Shown: piece by piece, positions 58,292 to 64,000 of the stretch
How the letters are laid out: each line of letters starts with the position of its first letter
Position numbering within the stretch: position 1 is the stretch's first letter
From: Paraburkholderia sp. IMGN_8
GTDB lineage: Bacteria > Pseudomonadota > Gammaproteobacteria > Burkholderiales > Burkholderiaceae
Assembly: GCF_038050405.1 (NCBI RefSeq)
Contig: NZ_CP150900.1
Span: forward strand, 4,464,001-4,528,000
Direction of reading: 5' to 3'
Length of the DNA: 64,000 bases
The notes under the pieces: generated by a model
What the model saw: only the letters and a program-made list of their open reading frames with translations
The model's database searches: none
What the model was told of the DNA's origin: nothing
Translations under genes and position numbers: made by a program

Positions 58292-58534
58292 ATGGCTGAC
58301 GCCAATCATAAAGCAGTTGCAGCTGTAACCCAACGCATCTTGACCATTTCGGCACAAAGACGGCCGCGGCCGATGAAGGTCTTAGGGCCTGAGAACTATG
58401 AGTTTTATAACGACTTGCCGCCGGCGCCTTGGATTCGGCTTTCGGGGAGATGGTTGGAGGAGGCGGGGTTTGAAATCGGGGTGAGGATTCGAGTAGGTGT
58501 CGAAAAGGGGAGGCTGATTATTACGCCAGTGTGA
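58292..58534 (+). CDS. SymE-like toxin-family protein
   Basis: 80 residues from ATG 58292, which follows AGGAG. The second half PWIRLSGRWLEEAGFEIGVR followed by IRVGVEKGRLIITPV is the SymE (AbrB-fold) signature. SymE of E. coli is an SOS-induced RNA-cleaving or nucleoid-compacting toxin held in check by the antisense RNA SymR. Whether an antisense RNA is encoded over the 58110-58290 leader cannot be told by eye. It sits directly behind the broken Wadjet. Confidence 0.85.
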   Translation: MADANHKAVAAVTQRILTISAQRRPRPMKVLGPENYEFYNDLPPAPWIRLSGRWLEEAGFEIGVRIRVGVEKGRLIITPV

Positions 58535-58753: not shown

Positions 58754-58790
58754 TGGGCGGAGGAGGATCGAACTCCCGACCTTCCGCTCT
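58754..58790 (-). pseudogene. tRNA 3'-end fragment
   Basis: Read on the minus strand: part of a variable/anticodon region, a T-arm GGGAG-TTCGATC-CTCCT and acceptor strand CCGCCCA followed by A. No 5' half, D-arm or CCA is present. Such 3' fragments are what site-specific integrases leave when they use a tRNA gene as target. Which tRNA it derives from is unclear. Confidence 0.5.
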
Positions 58791-58927
58791 CGCTCTGCAA
58801 TAAGATCCCGTCTTGAATCAAGTCATTTATTTGTGAATCTTTTCAACTATTCTGAGACGCTACACTACCCTGTAGCGATACTCAAAACGTGAGATTTTTG
58901 GGCCCGTCAGACAAGGCTCTGCGGACT

Positions 58928-58937
58928 GTGCGACGCA
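58928..58937 (+). repeat. Candidate left flanking repeat GTGCGACGCA
   Basis: GTGCGACGCA followed three bases later by GATGAG. The same decamer, followed six bases later by GATGAG, lies at 63272-63281 just beyond the repB-like gene, in the same orientation. The pair brackets the four-gene module. Confidence 0.35.
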
Positions 58938-59261
58938 TCGGATGAGATTTGGGGAATCATCGCGTGAGATTTTTTTGCAGGCAGCTGAACCGGCATGACA
59001 ACGGGGTACCTTCCTGGCGAAGCTCTCCCATCGCCATCGCCCATAGGGCCGTCGTGAGCGACCCATCTCGATGCACGCCGGCGGTCAAGAAAGGTCCAAG
59101 TTTCTGAGACTGGCCTACTAACGCGCCAGGCAGACAGCGATGGCTGTTTAACGAAGCAGCTACCGAGTTAAACCCCTCTCTATTCCGTCTCAGACCAGCG
59201 GTGTCGGTGACTGGTCGAGGCGTCGGCGTCTGCCCGTCGCAACCCGACCTCGAGGGCACCC

Positions 59262-59705
59262 ATGAAATCCCCCCGCCTCTGTCTCGCCTGTGGCAACGCG
59301 TTCGTGCCGCTGCTGCATGTTCCTCGTCAGCGTTACTGCTCGTCGGAAGCGTGCCAGCGCGCCCGTCGACGCGACTGGCAGAACCACCGGCTCCGTGTCG
59401 ACCGTGACTATCGCGACAACCAGGCCCGTGCCCAGGCGAGATGGCGCGCAGGCCACTCCGACTATTGGCGCGAATATCGAGCTGCACATCCGGCGTACCG
59501 GGAGCGCAACAGCAGCATGCAGCGGATGCGCAATGCACGACGGAGTTTCAAGCCGATTGCAAAGATGGATGTCATCGAACTGCCCCGGCCGCTGGGCTCT
59601 GGCTTCTACGTGCTGTGTCATGCGGATGATGCCAGCGCTGCAAAAATGGACGCGTGGACCGTCCACATCGCCGTCCTGTCTGCGCCGCCAGCACCGCCCG
59701 TGTGA
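59262..59705 (+). CDS. Cys-rich zinc-ribbon protein of the recombinase module
   Basis: 147 residues. The N-terminus carries CLACG and, 18 residues on, YCSSEACQRARRR, a CXXC...CXXXXC zinc site with a basic tail. The middle (about 40-90) is Arg/Tyr/Trp-rich (RWRAGHSDYWREYRAAHPAYRERN), like a nucleic-acid-binding stretch. ATG follows GAGG. From memory, proteins of this kind are found just ahead of a similar serine recombinase in other proteobacteria (Bradyrhizobium-like). Function unknown; a DNA- or RNA-binding accessory factor is a reasonable guess. Confidence 0.75.
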   Translation: MKSPRLCLACGNAFVPLLHVPRQRYCSSEACQRARRRDWQNHRLRVDRDYRDNQARAQARWRAGHSDYWREYRAAHPAYRERNSSMQRMRNARRSFKPIAKMDVIELPRPLGSGFYVLCHADDASAAKMDAWTVHIAVLSAPPAPPV

Positions 59706-59874
59706 TTGCAAAGAGATGACGTGATACACATTGGCGTCTGGCCTGCTATGTTTGCCTTGTCACCGTTCGCTTTTAAACGCCACCGCCTGATGTGAAGCCG
59801 CGGCGTTCGCACTTTGGGGCTCCCCTTGCGCTCGGTGCCTGCCGCGTGTCTGTGTCTGAGTTGCGGAGCGGAGC

Positions 59875-61440
59875 ATGTCAATCAATAGCGCGGGTCCAGC
59901 AGTCGTCGCCGGCTCCATGGCAGGACGGGCGGCTGAGTACGTCCGCATGTCGACCGAGCACCAGCAGTATTCGACCGAGAACCAGCGCGACCGAATTCGG
60001 GACTACGCGACCCGCCGCGGATTCGAAATCGTCCGCACATATGCCGACGAGGGTAAAAGCGGTCTTCGAATCGACGGTCGCCGGGCACTTCAGAATCTCA
60101 TCTCCGATGTGGTCAACGGCAAAGCCGATTTCGGCGTAATCCTCGTCTATGACGTGAGTCGCTGGGGGCGATTCCAGGATGCCGACGAGAGCGCGTATTA
60201 CGAGTACATCTGCCGCCGTGCGGGCATCCAGGTGGCGTACTGCGCCGAGCAGTTCGAAAACGATGGGTCACCTGTCTCGACCATCGTGAAAGGGGTAAAG
60301 CGGGCAATGGCTGGCGAGTACAGCCGCGAATTGTCCGCGAAGGTTTTCGCGGGCCAGTGCCGTTTAATTGAGATGGGCTTTCGGCAAGGAGGCCCAGCCG
60401 GTTATGGCCTTCGCCGGGTAATGGTCGATGAGCACGGACTCATGAAGGCGGAGCTGTGCCGGGGCGAACATAAAAGCCTGCAGACGGACCGGGTAATCCT
60501 CATGCCGGGGCCGGAAAGCGAGGTGCGAACTGTCAATCTAATCTATAACTGGTTTATCGACGAGTCGCTCGACGAATACGACATCGCAGCTCGCCTGAAC
60601 GGCATGCACGTGCGGACCGACCTTGACCGGGAGTGGACTCGAGCCACGGTACGGGAGGTATTGACCAACGAGAAATACATCGGCAACAACGTATATAACC
60701 GTGTGTCGTTCAAGCTGAAAAAGATGAGGGTGGTCAACACGCCCGACATGTGGATTCGAAAGGAGGCGGCATTTCAGGCAATTGTGCCAGGCGAAACGTT
60801 CTACACCGCTCAGGGCATCATGAGAGCGAGAGCGCGGCATTACTCGAATGAGGAGCTAATCGAGCGACTGCGCAACCTGTTCCGCAGTCGCGGTTTTCTG
60901 TCCGGCGTAGTGATTGACGAAACAGATGGCATGCCTTCTACGTCGGTCTATGTGTACCGATTCGGCAGTTTGATTCGTGCCTATCAGACAGTCGGTTTTA
61001 CCCCCGGCCGAGATTATCGATACATTGAGACCAACCGCTTCCTGCGACAACTGCATCCGGAAATCATTGCGCAGACGGAGAGGAAAATCGCGGATTTGGG
61101 CGGCACGGTGATGCGCGACCCGGCAACCGACCTGCTGACGGTCAACGAAGAGTTCACGGCGTGCATCGTGCTCGCGCGCTGCCAGGCGCATGACAATGGC
61201 CGGAATCATTGGAAGGTGCGCTTCGATACAAGCCTCCTGCCGGATATAACGGTCGCGGTGCGGCTCGACCAGACGAATGCATCGACGCTGGACTACTATC
61301 TCTTGCCACGTCTGGATTTTGGACAACCGCGTATTCACCTCGCCGACCAGAATCCAGTCGAGTTTGAGAGTTATCGCTTTGATACGCTGGACTACCTCTA
61401 CGGCATGGCCGAGCGTGCCCGTCTCAGGAGAGTAGCGTGA
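59875..61440 (+). CDS. Large serine recombinase
   Basis: 521 residues. Resolvase catalytic domain at 18-170: nucleophile Ser26 in EYVRMSTEHQQYSTENQ, Arg motif in YDVSRWGRF (93-100), and GEYSRELSAKVFAG. A recombinase DNA-binding domain follows (about 190-300, GPAGYGLRR ... TVREVLTNEKYIGNNVYNR). The C-terminal 200 residues lack the cysteine zinc-ribbon and long coiled coil of phage integrases, and are instead specific to this subfamily. Stop overlaps the GTG start of the ParB-like gene. Probably moves or resolves the element. Confidence 0.9.
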   Translation: MSINSAGPAVVAGSMAGRAAEYVRMSTEHQQYSTENQRDRIRDYATRRGFEIVRTYADEGKSGLRIDGRRALQNLISDVVNGKADFGVILVYDVSRWGRFQDADESAYYEYICRRAGIQVAYCAEQFENDGSPVSTIVKGVKRAMAGEYSRELSAKVFAGQCRLIEMGFRQGGPAGYGLRRVMVDEHGLMKAELCRGEHKSLQTDRVILMPGPESEVRTVNLIYNWFIDESLDEYDIAARLNGMHVRTDLDREWTRATVREVLTNEKYIGNNVYNRVSFKLKKMRVVNTPDMWIRKEAAFQAIVPGETFYTAQGIMRARARHYSNEELIERLRNLFRSRGFLSGVVIDETDGMPSTSVYVYRFGSLIRAYQTVGFTPGRDYRYIETNRFLRQLHPEIIAQTERKIADLGGTVMRDPATDLLTVNEEFTACIVLARCQAHDNGRNHWKVRFDTSLLPDITVAVRLDQTNASTLDYYLLPRLDFGQPRIHLADQNPVEFESYRFDTLDYLYGMAERARLRRVA

Positions 61441-62339
61441 ACTCGCGGCAGCAGCCCGGAGAAATCCGGATGGTCCCCATCTCCCAGATTGAAGTCATCA
61501 ATCCGCGAGAACGCAACGGTCGGGTTTTCAATGAAATCGTCGACAACATCAAGGCCATCGGACTCAAGAAGCCTATCGTGGTCACGCCGCGGGCAACGGC
61601 CGGCGGCATAGAAAAATACCTGCTCGTGTGCGGCGAGGGGCGATTGAAGGCGTTCCGCACGCTCGGGGAAGCGACTATTCCCGCACTCGTGGTGAGCGTC
61701 AGCGATGAGGACGCGTTCGTCATGAGTCTGACGGAAAACATCGCGCGCAGACAGTGTCGCCCACTCGAACGGCTCGCCGGCATTCGGCAATTGCAGGAGC
61801 AGGGATATGCGCCGAAGGTCATTGCCGAAAAGACAGGTCTTACGCCGGCTTACGTTCACGGCATCCTCGCGCTGCTGCGCCCGGGAGAAGAGAGACTTGT
61901 CGTTGCGGTGGAGAAAGGCGTCGTTCCCCTGAATGCGGCCCTCATGATTGTTGGCGCCGGCGACGACGACGCTGAAATACAGGCAGCGCTCCAGGAGGCC
62001 TATGAGTCGGGAAAATTGCGGGGCAAGCAACTGATGAGCGCTCGCCGCGTCATCGAGCGCAGAAAGGCACTCGGGCGAAGCACGGCGCACAATATGACGA
62101 GCAAATCCGCCGCTGTCACCACATCGAGTCTTGTGCGGACGTATGAGCACGAGGTTGAACGTCAGAAGTCCATGGTGCGAAAGGCCGAGTTCACGCAACA
62201 GCGGTTGCTTTTTGTGGTCGGTGCATTGAGGCAACTGTTTGCCGATGAGAACTTCATCAACCTGTTGCGCGCGGAGGGACTGGCCAGCCTGCCGAAGTAT
62301 CTTGCCGAACGCGTTTGGCCAACCGGGAGTGCCACATGA
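61437..62339 (+). CDS. ParB/RepB-like protein 1
   Basis: 300 residues; GTG start at 61437 overlapping the recombinase stop, with CAGGAG upstream. ParB N-terminal domain at about 10-110: VPISQIEVINPRERNGRVFNE, VCGEGRLKAF (65-73, the equivalent of the CTP-binding GERR box but with Gly in place of the first Arg) and ENIARRQCRPLE (100-111). A helix-turn-helix lies near 125-145. A coiled, charged C-terminus follows. In plasmids such proteins bind parS and load as CTP clamps; no ParA is encoded here. Confidence 0.85.
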   Translation: MNSRQQPGEIRMVPISQIEVINPRERNGRVFNEIVDNIKAIGLKKPIVVTPRATAGGIEKYLLVCGEGRLKAFRTLGEATIPALVVSVSDEDAFVMSLTENIARRQCRPLERLAGIRQLQEQGYAPKVIAEKTGLTPAYVHGILALLRPGEERLVVAVEKGVVPLNAALMIVGAGDDDAEIQAALQEAYESGKLRGKQLMSARRVIERRKALGRSTAHNMTSKSAAVTTSSLVRTYEHEVERQKSMVRKAEFTQQRLLFVVGALRQLFADENFINLLRAEGLASLPKYLAERVWPTGSAT

Positions 62340-63238
62340 CTGGCGTCACTCTCGGATTCATCCCCGAGCCGTTGTCGGTGCCGGTCTCCTGCATCTTGCC
62401 ATCGCGGAGAATACCGGCGCCGGTGCTCGAGTCGCGCAAATTCAGGCAGATAAGAACTTCAATTGAGGAGGTAGGCCTCATCGAACCGCTTTCCGTAACG
62501 CCTGCGGACCAGTCTTCCGGGCAACATGTTCTGCTGGATGGGCATCTACGATTGCTCGCCATCCAGGACTTGGGCCACGAGCGGGCTGCCTGCCTTGTCG
62601 CGACCGATGACGAAAGCTACACCTATAACAACCGGGTCAATCGCCTCTCGACAATCCAGGAGCACTATATGATTCGGCGTGTAATCGACAGAGGCGTATC
62701 AGCCGAACGATTGGCAAAATCTCTTTCCGTGGACGTATCACAAATCATAAAGAAGGCGTCGCTGCTCGACGGCGTTTGCCCGGAAGCGGCTAAACTTCTC
62801 GCCGACCGGCAGTTCTCGCCGGAGCTCGTTCGCGCGATTCGCAAAATGAAGCCCACGCGGCAGGTCGAATGCGTTGAGCTGATGGTGGCCGCTAACAATG
62901 TGTCAGTCTCCTACGCCGAGGCATTGTTGGTAGCAACGCCTGCAGCGCGTCTTGTCGAGGGCAAGAAGCCACGCAAACTGACCGGCGTCAGCCCGGAGCA
63001 GATGGCGAAAATGGAGCGCGAAATGAGCAATCTGCAGGGGCAGTACAAGCTCGTGGAACAGACTTACGGTCAAGACGTGTTGAATCTGGTGCTTGCGAAA
63101 GGATATCTCGCCAAGCTCCTCGAAAACGATTCTGCACGGCAATACGTTGTTCAACACCATCCGGATTTGATGGCGGAGTTCGAGTCCATCATTGCAACCA
63201 TTTCCCTCGACCAGCAGCAATTCGGCACGGTCGTCTAG
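62336..63238 (+). CDS. RepB-like protein 2 (plasmid-partition RepB C-terminal family)
   Basis: 300 residues from ATG 62336, overlapping the previous stop (ATGA). ParB-like N-terminal domain with a diverged nucleotide box (LLDGHLRLLA, 66-75) and NNRVNRLSTIQEHYMI (98-113); helix-turn-helix around 115-145; and RepB C-terminal features RQVECVELMVAANNVSVSYAEALLVATPA. It is paralogous to the upstream gene but has lost more of the CTP-binding consensus. Last gene of the coupled trio. Confidence 0.85.
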   Translation: MTGVTLGFIPEPLSVPVSCILPSRRIPAPVLESRKFRQIRTSIEEVGLIEPLSVTPADQSSGQHVLLDGHLRLLAIQDLGHERAACLVATDDESYTYNNRVNRLSTIQEHYMIRRVIDRGVSAERLAKSLSVDVSQIIKKASLLDGVCPEAAKLLADRQFSPELVRAIRKMKPTRQVECVELMVAANNVSVSYAEALLVATPAARLVEGKKPRKLTGVSPEQMAKMEREMSNLQGQYKLVEQTYGQDVLNLVLAKGYLAKLLENDSARQYVVQHHPDLMAEFESIIATISLDQQQFGTVV

Positions 63239-63473: not shown

Positions 63474-64000
63474 TCACACTTCCGCTACCACCGTTGGCCG
63501 GACGTTGTCGCAAGCTGCCTCGACGTCCTCCGGCCAATTCGGTTCACGAGATGTTAGCTGTGCAATGTAGTGAAGCACGGACAGCAAAAAAACCGGGACA
63601 CTGAGTACGAGGGAGAAAATGCGAAATCCCGCGCTAACACCGCCAAGGTCGCGCAGCCCATAGAACCAAAGGCTCATGGAGGCTCGAAGAGAGGGGCCGC
63701 GCGGCAGATACTTTTTCACAGGTGGCGGTGAATCTGGACCGCCTTCCATGTAGCGGCGAATGAACTCGAAGTTAGTCTGGACCTGATAAAGCACCTGTTT
63801 GCCGTAGCGGGTGGACTCTTTCGCCCCATTGACTGTCCGAAGCCCAAAGCTGAAGGTATCAACGATTTTCTTGCCCGAGTCGTCAAGAACGAAACAGCGC
63901 ATCAGGGTGGGTGCTCCGCCAAACGTGGCGTTGGAGGGCAACCGGTGTACAAAGAAGAATGCCTTATCCCATGAAACGGCGATGACACCGCCCGGGCCGC
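63474..64000 (-). CDS. DUF6708-like protein (partial, cut by window end)
   Basis: C-terminal 175 residues of a protein whose start lies beyond the window; the frame is open to 64000 (reading GGVIAVSWDKAFFFVHRLPSNATFGG). A hydrophobic segment (IFSLVLSVPVFLLSVLHYIAQL) is followed by the ending NWPEDVEAAC. This architecture resembles DUF6708 proteins, which occur beside type VI secretion VgrG/effector genes in Burkholderia. The family call rests on memory of that C-terminus. Confidence 0.6.
   Translation of the reverse strand, partial: GPGGVIAVSWDKAFFFVHRLPSNATFGGAPTLMRCFVLDDSGKKIVDTFSFGLRTVNGAKESTRYGKQVLYQVQTNFEFIRRYMEGGPDSPPPVKKYLPRGPSLRASMSLWFYGLRDLGGVSAGFRIFSLVLSVPVFLLSVLHYIAQLTSREPNWPEDVEAACDNVRPTVVAEV

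Follow-up and report, generated by a model that had tools for sequence, protein, structure and literature searches.

A serine recombinase and ParB-like gene module inside the left end of gyrB-targeting Tn7-like transposons in Paraburkholderia

Introduction

What role does a gene set have that encodes a serine recombinase, two ParB-like proteins, and a small cysteine-rich protein, with no ParA beside it? The question is raised by a 64,000-nucleotide stretch of the genome of Paraburkholderia sp. IMGN_8 (referred to as the window; positions given without a contig prefix are window positions, the genome is called G000, and C1 is its contig in G000 coordinates). The original prediction, made from the window, was that these genes form a compact mobile element. 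The link to mobile DNA has held up; the genes do not appear to be a compact element by themselves, however, and are an internal part of a Tn7-like transposon. From its anatomy and location, we are nearly certain that the gene set is the left-end module of that transposon. This finds a home for a widespread and unexplained gene set, describes a Tn7-like group with a gyrB target beside dnaN and dnaA, and gives strong evidence that a single accessory module has passed between transposon lineages whose transposases differ greatly.

The four genes and their products

The module lies on the forward strand and begins with a gene for a small Cys-rich protein of 147 aa without any Pfam family (59262 to 59705). 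This gene is followed by those for a large serine recombinase of 521 aa (59875 to 61440) and for two ParB/RepB-like proteins of 300 aa each, referred to as RepB1 (61437 to 62339) and RepB2 (62336 to 63238). The sequence bears out the four genes as originally delimited, together with the four-base overlaps GTGA and ATGA between the recombinase, RepB1, and RepB2 genes. The recombinase matches the Pfam families Resolvase (7e-24) and Recombinase (7e-20), and the residues that we take to be catalytic in serine recombinases are invariant in 60 sequences. The best fold matches of its model (mean pLDDT of 79.8) are serine integrases, with E values from 3e-14 to 1e-10; the TM-scores by query are only 0.2 to 0.3, indicating that the domains are placed differently. 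The protein is like the PhiC31 and Bxb1 integrases in its catalytic and recombinase domains and in these fold matches, but it differs from them in its C-terminal part, which is modeled as helices followed by a beta domain, and in that no zinc-ribbon Pfam domain was found in it at a threshold of 0.01.

RepB1 matches the Pfam families RepB (6e-17) and ParB_N (2.5e-11) and keeps the motifs G[EQ]GR and EN[IL]ARR, presumably the CTP-binding motifs of ParB proteins, which are both present in 13 of 13 diverse sequences. By motif comparison, the two motifs are degenerate in RepB2, which matches Pfam RepB (2e-45) and, both by sequence and by predicted model, the structures of Noc and Spo0J. The RepB2 model (mean pLDDT of 80.5; TM-score by query of about 0.3) has a Noc/ParB-like fold with a long C-terminal helix. 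The pair therefore resembles ParB, Noc, KorB, and the RepB of repABC systems in its ParB_N and RepB domains, in the CTP motifs of RepB1, and in the Noc/ParB fold of RepB2, whereas the presence of two paralogues, an element without ParA, and parS sites that are candidates only set it apart. The absence of a ParA partner, which distinguishes the module from a ParABS partition system and had been noted within the original gene neighborhood, extends to the whole transposon: ParA (PF13614) matches 18 places elsewhere in the G000 genome and none in C1:4522871-4591802.

Judging from the sequence, two stretches outside the genes are candidate parS sites. One of them, TGGC-N10-GCCA (59111 to 59128), was read by eye 5' of the small gene; it is kept in some relatives and absent in others and may be a regulator site. 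The other is a conserved non-coding stretch between the small gene and the recombinase gene (59740 to 59757), in which CTGCTA and, two bases on, TTT are invariant in 20 of 20 aligned modules, and which is a candidate promoter or operator. Identity with a known anti-phage defense system was considered and rejected, as the four module proteins matched 0 PADLOC families at 0.001.

A Tn7-like transposon at the gyrB locus

In G000, a transposon of 68,932 bp with TGTAG...CTACA ends (C1:4522871-4591802) carries the module 0.4 kb in from its left end. The left end was located where similarity to same-genus relatives begins at TGTAG (58871), the flanks being unrelated. On the forward strand, this end is made up of the terminal TGTAG and, at intervals, three copies of CA-N6-GAGATTT (58871 to 58972), which are candidate TnsB binding sites and have an inverted counterpart at the right end. 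On the left, the 5-bp target-site duplication reads TACCC (58866 to 58870); it recurs after CTACA at C1:4591803-4591807. The right end at C1:4591802 corresponds to a window coordinate of about 127,800, and its flank, which lies 64 kb outside the window, holds the gyrB 3' end, adjoining dnaN- and dnaA-like genes (gyrB, dnaN, and dnaA were assigned by reading translations). The gap between the transposon and the gyrB stop codon is seven bases. ARAGORN found no tRNA gene in the stretch that holds this right flank, and no Rfam match was found at the flank.

A tnsABCD-like operon lies outside the window on the opposite strand, about 18 to 24 kb from the repB2 end. Its products are a TniB/TnsC AAA+ protein (PF05621, 2.2e-24), a TniQ/TnsD target selector of 615 aa (PF06527, 3.3e-9), a TnsB-like protein matching TnsB in the PDB over residues 285 to 616 (3.8e-5; no Pfam match below 0.001), and a TnsA-like protein. 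The last has no Pfam match and a weak NCBIfam TnsA_like match (0.003) that falls below the cut-off; position and conservation suggest its identity, the gene being found in all seven elements of the G000-type tns family. Apart from the weak TnsA-like assignment, the host element has the hallmarks of a Tn7-like transposon. It is like Tn7, Tn6022, and the CASTs in its TnsB-like, TnsC/TniB, and TniQ/TnsD proteins, in its TGT...ACA ends with repeated motifs and a 5-bp duplication, and in its insertion just past a conserved gene, and it differs from them in its gyrB target and in the four-gene serine recombinase-ParB module inside its left end. Directly after the module, the cargo continues with a DUF6708 protein (63474 to 63998, running past the window end), and further cargo at L016:807-6820 encodes a VasX_N protein and VgrG, a type VI secretion cassette.

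Starting from modules, we tried to delimit 11 elements and succeeded for 8; for G082, G108, and G133, the gyrB side lay outside the stretches examined. The eight elements come from eight Paraburkholderia genomes and range from 16 to 69 kb. All lie at the gyrB 3' end and are bounded by a perfect 5-bp duplication: TACCC in G000 (68.9 kb), CAGGT in G124 (38.3 kb), TTACT in G011 (38.7 kb), AACGC in G009 (34.3 kb), ATGAC in G091 (16.0 kb), CCCAC in G093 (37.5 kb), GGGCC in G048 (22.8 kb), and CCTTT in G122 (30.3 kb). The small gene starts 256 to 714 bp from the left end in 8 of 8, followed by the genes for the recombinase, RepB1, and RepB2. The G122 element belongs to another tns family; its TnsC is 28% identical over part of its length, and its TnsB gave no match in the element comparison and a 26% match in a separate TnsB search. 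Elements of two distinct Tn7-like families share the gyrB target in this genus, adjoin there, and carry the same kind of module directly within the left end.

The association also holds when starting from the transposase: by a hand check, among the 16 genomes in which TnsB is matched strongly (E < 1e-80), 15 have a module or module fragment within 50 kb, the remaining one, G132, having none within that distance and its nearest 292 kb away. When the joined flanks of the G011 element were used as the query, the gyrB side matched in 140 of 144 genomes. Among the matches listed, the left flank is present in full only in G011 itself and no genome has both flanks contiguous as an empty site, so that mobility rests on the 5-bp duplications. 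One genome, G033, has 80% identity over positions 116 to 320 across the joined flanks.

Distribution of the module

Among 144 Paraburkholderia genomes, RepB2 was matched in 73 and the recombinase in 77 (threshold of 0.001). With short fragments and a broken copy in G123 left out, 88 recombinase matches were kept and fall into classes of at least 83% identity (26 matches), 75 to 82% (4 matches), 50 to 58% (14 matches), and 35 to 46% (44 matches). A TniB/TnsC-like gene lies within 50 kb of at least 20 of the 26 modules in the closest class (chance, 0.41) and, among the matches listed, of 0 of 4, 1 of 44, and 0 of 14 modules in the 75 to 82%, 35 to 46%, and 50 to 58% classes, respectively; the TniB cut-off was about E 2e-11, and all TniB counts are among the matches listed. 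The gyrB contig carries 21 of the 26 close modules, all 21 within 90 kb of the gyrB 3' end, and for the other five the gyrB match is on a different contig. Modules within 100 kb of gyrB number 0 of 4 (75 to 82%), 1 of 14 (50 to 58%), and 0 of 44 (35 to 46%) in the remaining classes. With TniB near 1 and gyrB near 1 of the 62 diverged modules, it is a single subfamily of this large gene family that has become established in Tn7-like elements targeting gyrB.

A scan of the genome collection gave 567 confirmed loci, and in 73 of the best 80 of these the recombinase, RepB1, and RepB2 genes occur in that order, with a small-protein homologue upstream in 68 of the 73. The gene order is not chance. 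A conserved gene set with counterparts in other proteobacteria had been anticipated from the window, and it does occur in many. Within the family, RepB1 is found at E 1e-40 in 51 of 398 genomes and 7 of 25 genera. TnsC-like genes are present in the examined flank of 11 of the best 80 of the 567 loci, on the minus strand downstream in 10 of the 11; five of these loci are from Burkholderia or Paraburkholderia and six are from Duganella, Undibacterium, or Rugamonas, and TniB, TniQ, and rve domains were confirmed on three of their proteins. Beyond the nearest genomes, a TniB match at 1e-8 is present somewhere in 19 of 49. Another branch has a gene directly 3' of repB2 in 19 of the 73 ordered loci; we had guessed a DUF3987-like protein, which was not borne out by Pfam, the one member tested having no match.

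Multiple gene sets can occur in one genome. A second, diverged recombinase-RepB1-RepB2 set in G000 (C1:4332594-4335911; L017) is 38 to 44% identical and is not near TniB. Two recombinase sets lie side by side in L105, L106, L107, and L108, and in L105 and L106 one of the sets has only a single, distant RepB-like partner.

Exchange of modules between transposon lineages

Compared with that of G000, the recombinase is 93 to 95% identical in G009, G011, G048, and G093, where TnsB is 42 to 47% identical, and 95 to 96% identical in G091 and G124, where TnsB is 84% identical. In these six other elements of the same tns family, RepB1 and RepB2 are 91 to 96% and the small protein is 78 to 95% identical to the G000 proteins. 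Recombinase identity of 93 to 95% despite TnsB identity of 42 to 47% argues strongly that the module has been exchanged between transposon lineages. At the DNA level, the module is similar from near 59052 in three elements to about the stop codon of repB2, past which the sequences are unrelated. G082 has a window-type left end (58757 to 59128, 88%) and a TnsB of 81% identity, yet its module is only 74% identical. By eye, G124 has the right end of G000 with a different left end, and G091 has the left end of G000 with a different right end; left- and right-end types appear not to go together. Modules also occur in tandem, with three in G012, the middle one truncated.

A candidate recombination site at the 3' end of repB2

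The shortest stretch common to the rearranged junctions that we compared is the last 81 bp of repB2 (63158 to 63238, forward strand), which we regard as a candidate recombination site. In G000, repB2 is followed by an 11-kb segment that encodes VgrG and a VasX_N protein, and beyond this segment there is a second copy of the repB2 3' end (221 bp, 83%); G026 has the same segment. The module of G133 is joined directly to the DNA that in G000 follows this second copy. We read an alignment of several genomes as showing five combinations of a left partner (the module, cargo X, or cargo Y) with one of two right partners. An insert in G091 begins with a tniQ fragment and is flanked by an 81-bp copy of the repB2 end that is 94% identical. 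Such duplications resemble what insertion at a gene end would leave if it restored the gene.

As a general feature, duplication of the repB2 end was rejected as rare. A self-repeat was found in only 3 of 24 sequences tested, and the wider loci gave one 18-bp, chance-like match in 152 (the 152 of 157 loci with at least 500 bp of downstream DNA, median of 9.9 kb). Synonymous-site constraint in the last eight repB2 codons is the highest in that gene (0.24, compared to a mean of 0.10 with an sd of 0.04). It is higher at the start of the recombinase gene (0.41), which makes codon constraint weak as proof of a recombination site in repB2.

Possible function of the module

Our leading reading, held tentatively and at a little less than an even chance, is that the module is a site-specific recombination device that acts on modules and cargo in arrays of transposons at gyrB. 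The large serine recombinase would have its target site within the 3' end of repB2 or close to it. RepB1, as a ParB-type CTP-switch protein, and RepB2, as a relative without the nucleotide motifs, would bind DNA around the recombination site or near the left end and would govern both the pairing of sites and its direction. As originally suggested, the two proteins may serve the recombinase as DNA-sliding clamps or synapsis factors. Where elements stand in tandem, one element would contribute its left end and module to the joined product, and another its cargo, tns genes, and right end; alternatively, cargo-carrying circles would be inserted beside the module. We have moderate confidence in the recombination mechanism, that is, in a serine recombinase working with ParB partners. 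It is supported by the module always being first inside the left end, in 8 of 8 elements and in two tns families, and this fixed position in two tns families speaks against a wholly ordinary reading, just as a recombination site that is still a candidate speaks against a bold one. Such hybrids could also arise by homologous recombination between modules that are repeated. Because diverged relatives sit outside Tn7-like elements, the original role of the genes may have been different.

A recombination device of this kind, if real, would account for the assembly and exchange of large cargo by Tn7-like elements (here the VgrG and VasX_N type VI secretion cassette), and ParB-type proteins would gain a role in steering a site-specific recombinase. 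It is possible, although doubtful, that the module is an undescribed recombination platform in which a serine integrase and a pair of ParB proteins, one CTP binding and one nucleotide free, swap left ends, cargo, and transposase sets among transposons that lie stacked at gyrB. By analogy, a recombination platform common to different Tn7-like transposons might be the counterpart of the integron for whole cargo blocks, which we hold to be similarly doubtful.

We consider it rather unlikely that the module is a passenger that serves another purpose, such as defense against mobile DNA or the stabilizing of circular forms, with its left-end position inherited and its exchange due to homologous recombination within tandem arrays. 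Other modules do occur on plasmids and prophage-like contigs, and some have Abi, Fic, toxin-antitoxin, and phosphorothioation genes as neighbors, which fits a passenger. Furthermore, in ten contexts of a diverged subfamily, conservation breaks off right at the outer stop codons or close to them, the pattern of an operon that has no ends of its own; the same border alignments tell against the element ends expected in the original prediction. However, the four proteins have no PADLOC match, a fixed place inside the left end in 8 of 8 elements (which were found from modules) would be unusual for cargo, and the position stays the same although module and tns type vary independently.

Clearly less probable is that the recombinase works as a resolvase in transposition or on dimers, that the ParB pair are topological accessory factors, and that the repB2-end joins are by-products. 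Elements of the Tn5053 type have a serine resolvase as a core part. The available part of Benler et al. 2021 (PMC8649781) describes serine resolvases without a clear role in tnsA-positive Tn7-like elements; those studied here likewise combine a serine-family recombinase with a Tn7-like element, one that has a TnsA-like gene. Nevertheless, this TnsA-like gene lies in the same operon (weak NCBIfam match of 0.003), so one would not expect cointegrates, and the recombinase is of the large integrase type and thus unlike a small resolvase. That the four genes are a compact, self-moving transposable element is very improbable: a block of about 3.8 to 4.2 kb with unrelated flanks does recur in many places, but the diverged subfamily has no conserved non-coding termini beyond the genes, the ends found in the close subfamily belong to the Tn7-like element, and the module is at the gyrB locus wherever this is determinable (21 of 21).

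Within the literature, ParB and gyrB are absent from the main text of PMC8649781, whose available part also makes no mention of a fixed left-end module. The available part of Faure et al. mentions no serine recombinases, ParB, or gyrB, and neither gyrB nor ParB occurs in that of the Burkholderia Tn7-like paper. In the available portions of the open-licence literature, including PMC8649781, PMC10293859, PMC10702557, and PMC12452197, neither Tn7-like elements with a serine recombinase-ParB module nor those with a gyrB target were found.

Neighboring sequences and viral relatives

To the left of the transposon, the window encodes a Wadjet JetC protein (PADLOC, E 0) followed by a DUF3322 protein (PF11795; 53879 to 58105 together), which we take to be of the JetD type and whose reading frame looks split near 57.9 kb. 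DNA similar to this Wadjet region lies beside the modules in G091 and G123. A SymE-like protein (PF08845, 1e-14; 58292 to 58531) is encoded between the Wadjet genes and the transposon. The apparent right end of a neighboring element (58757 to 58865), with its CTACA six bases before TGTAG, adjoins the transposon, and a tRNA-3'-like fragment was seen there by eye; similar DNA is present in G082 and G123. Relatives of RepB2 are also encoded by 78 contigs of the viral collection (L240 to L317), several of which have the gene at the very contig edge, as if phages insert adjacent to it.
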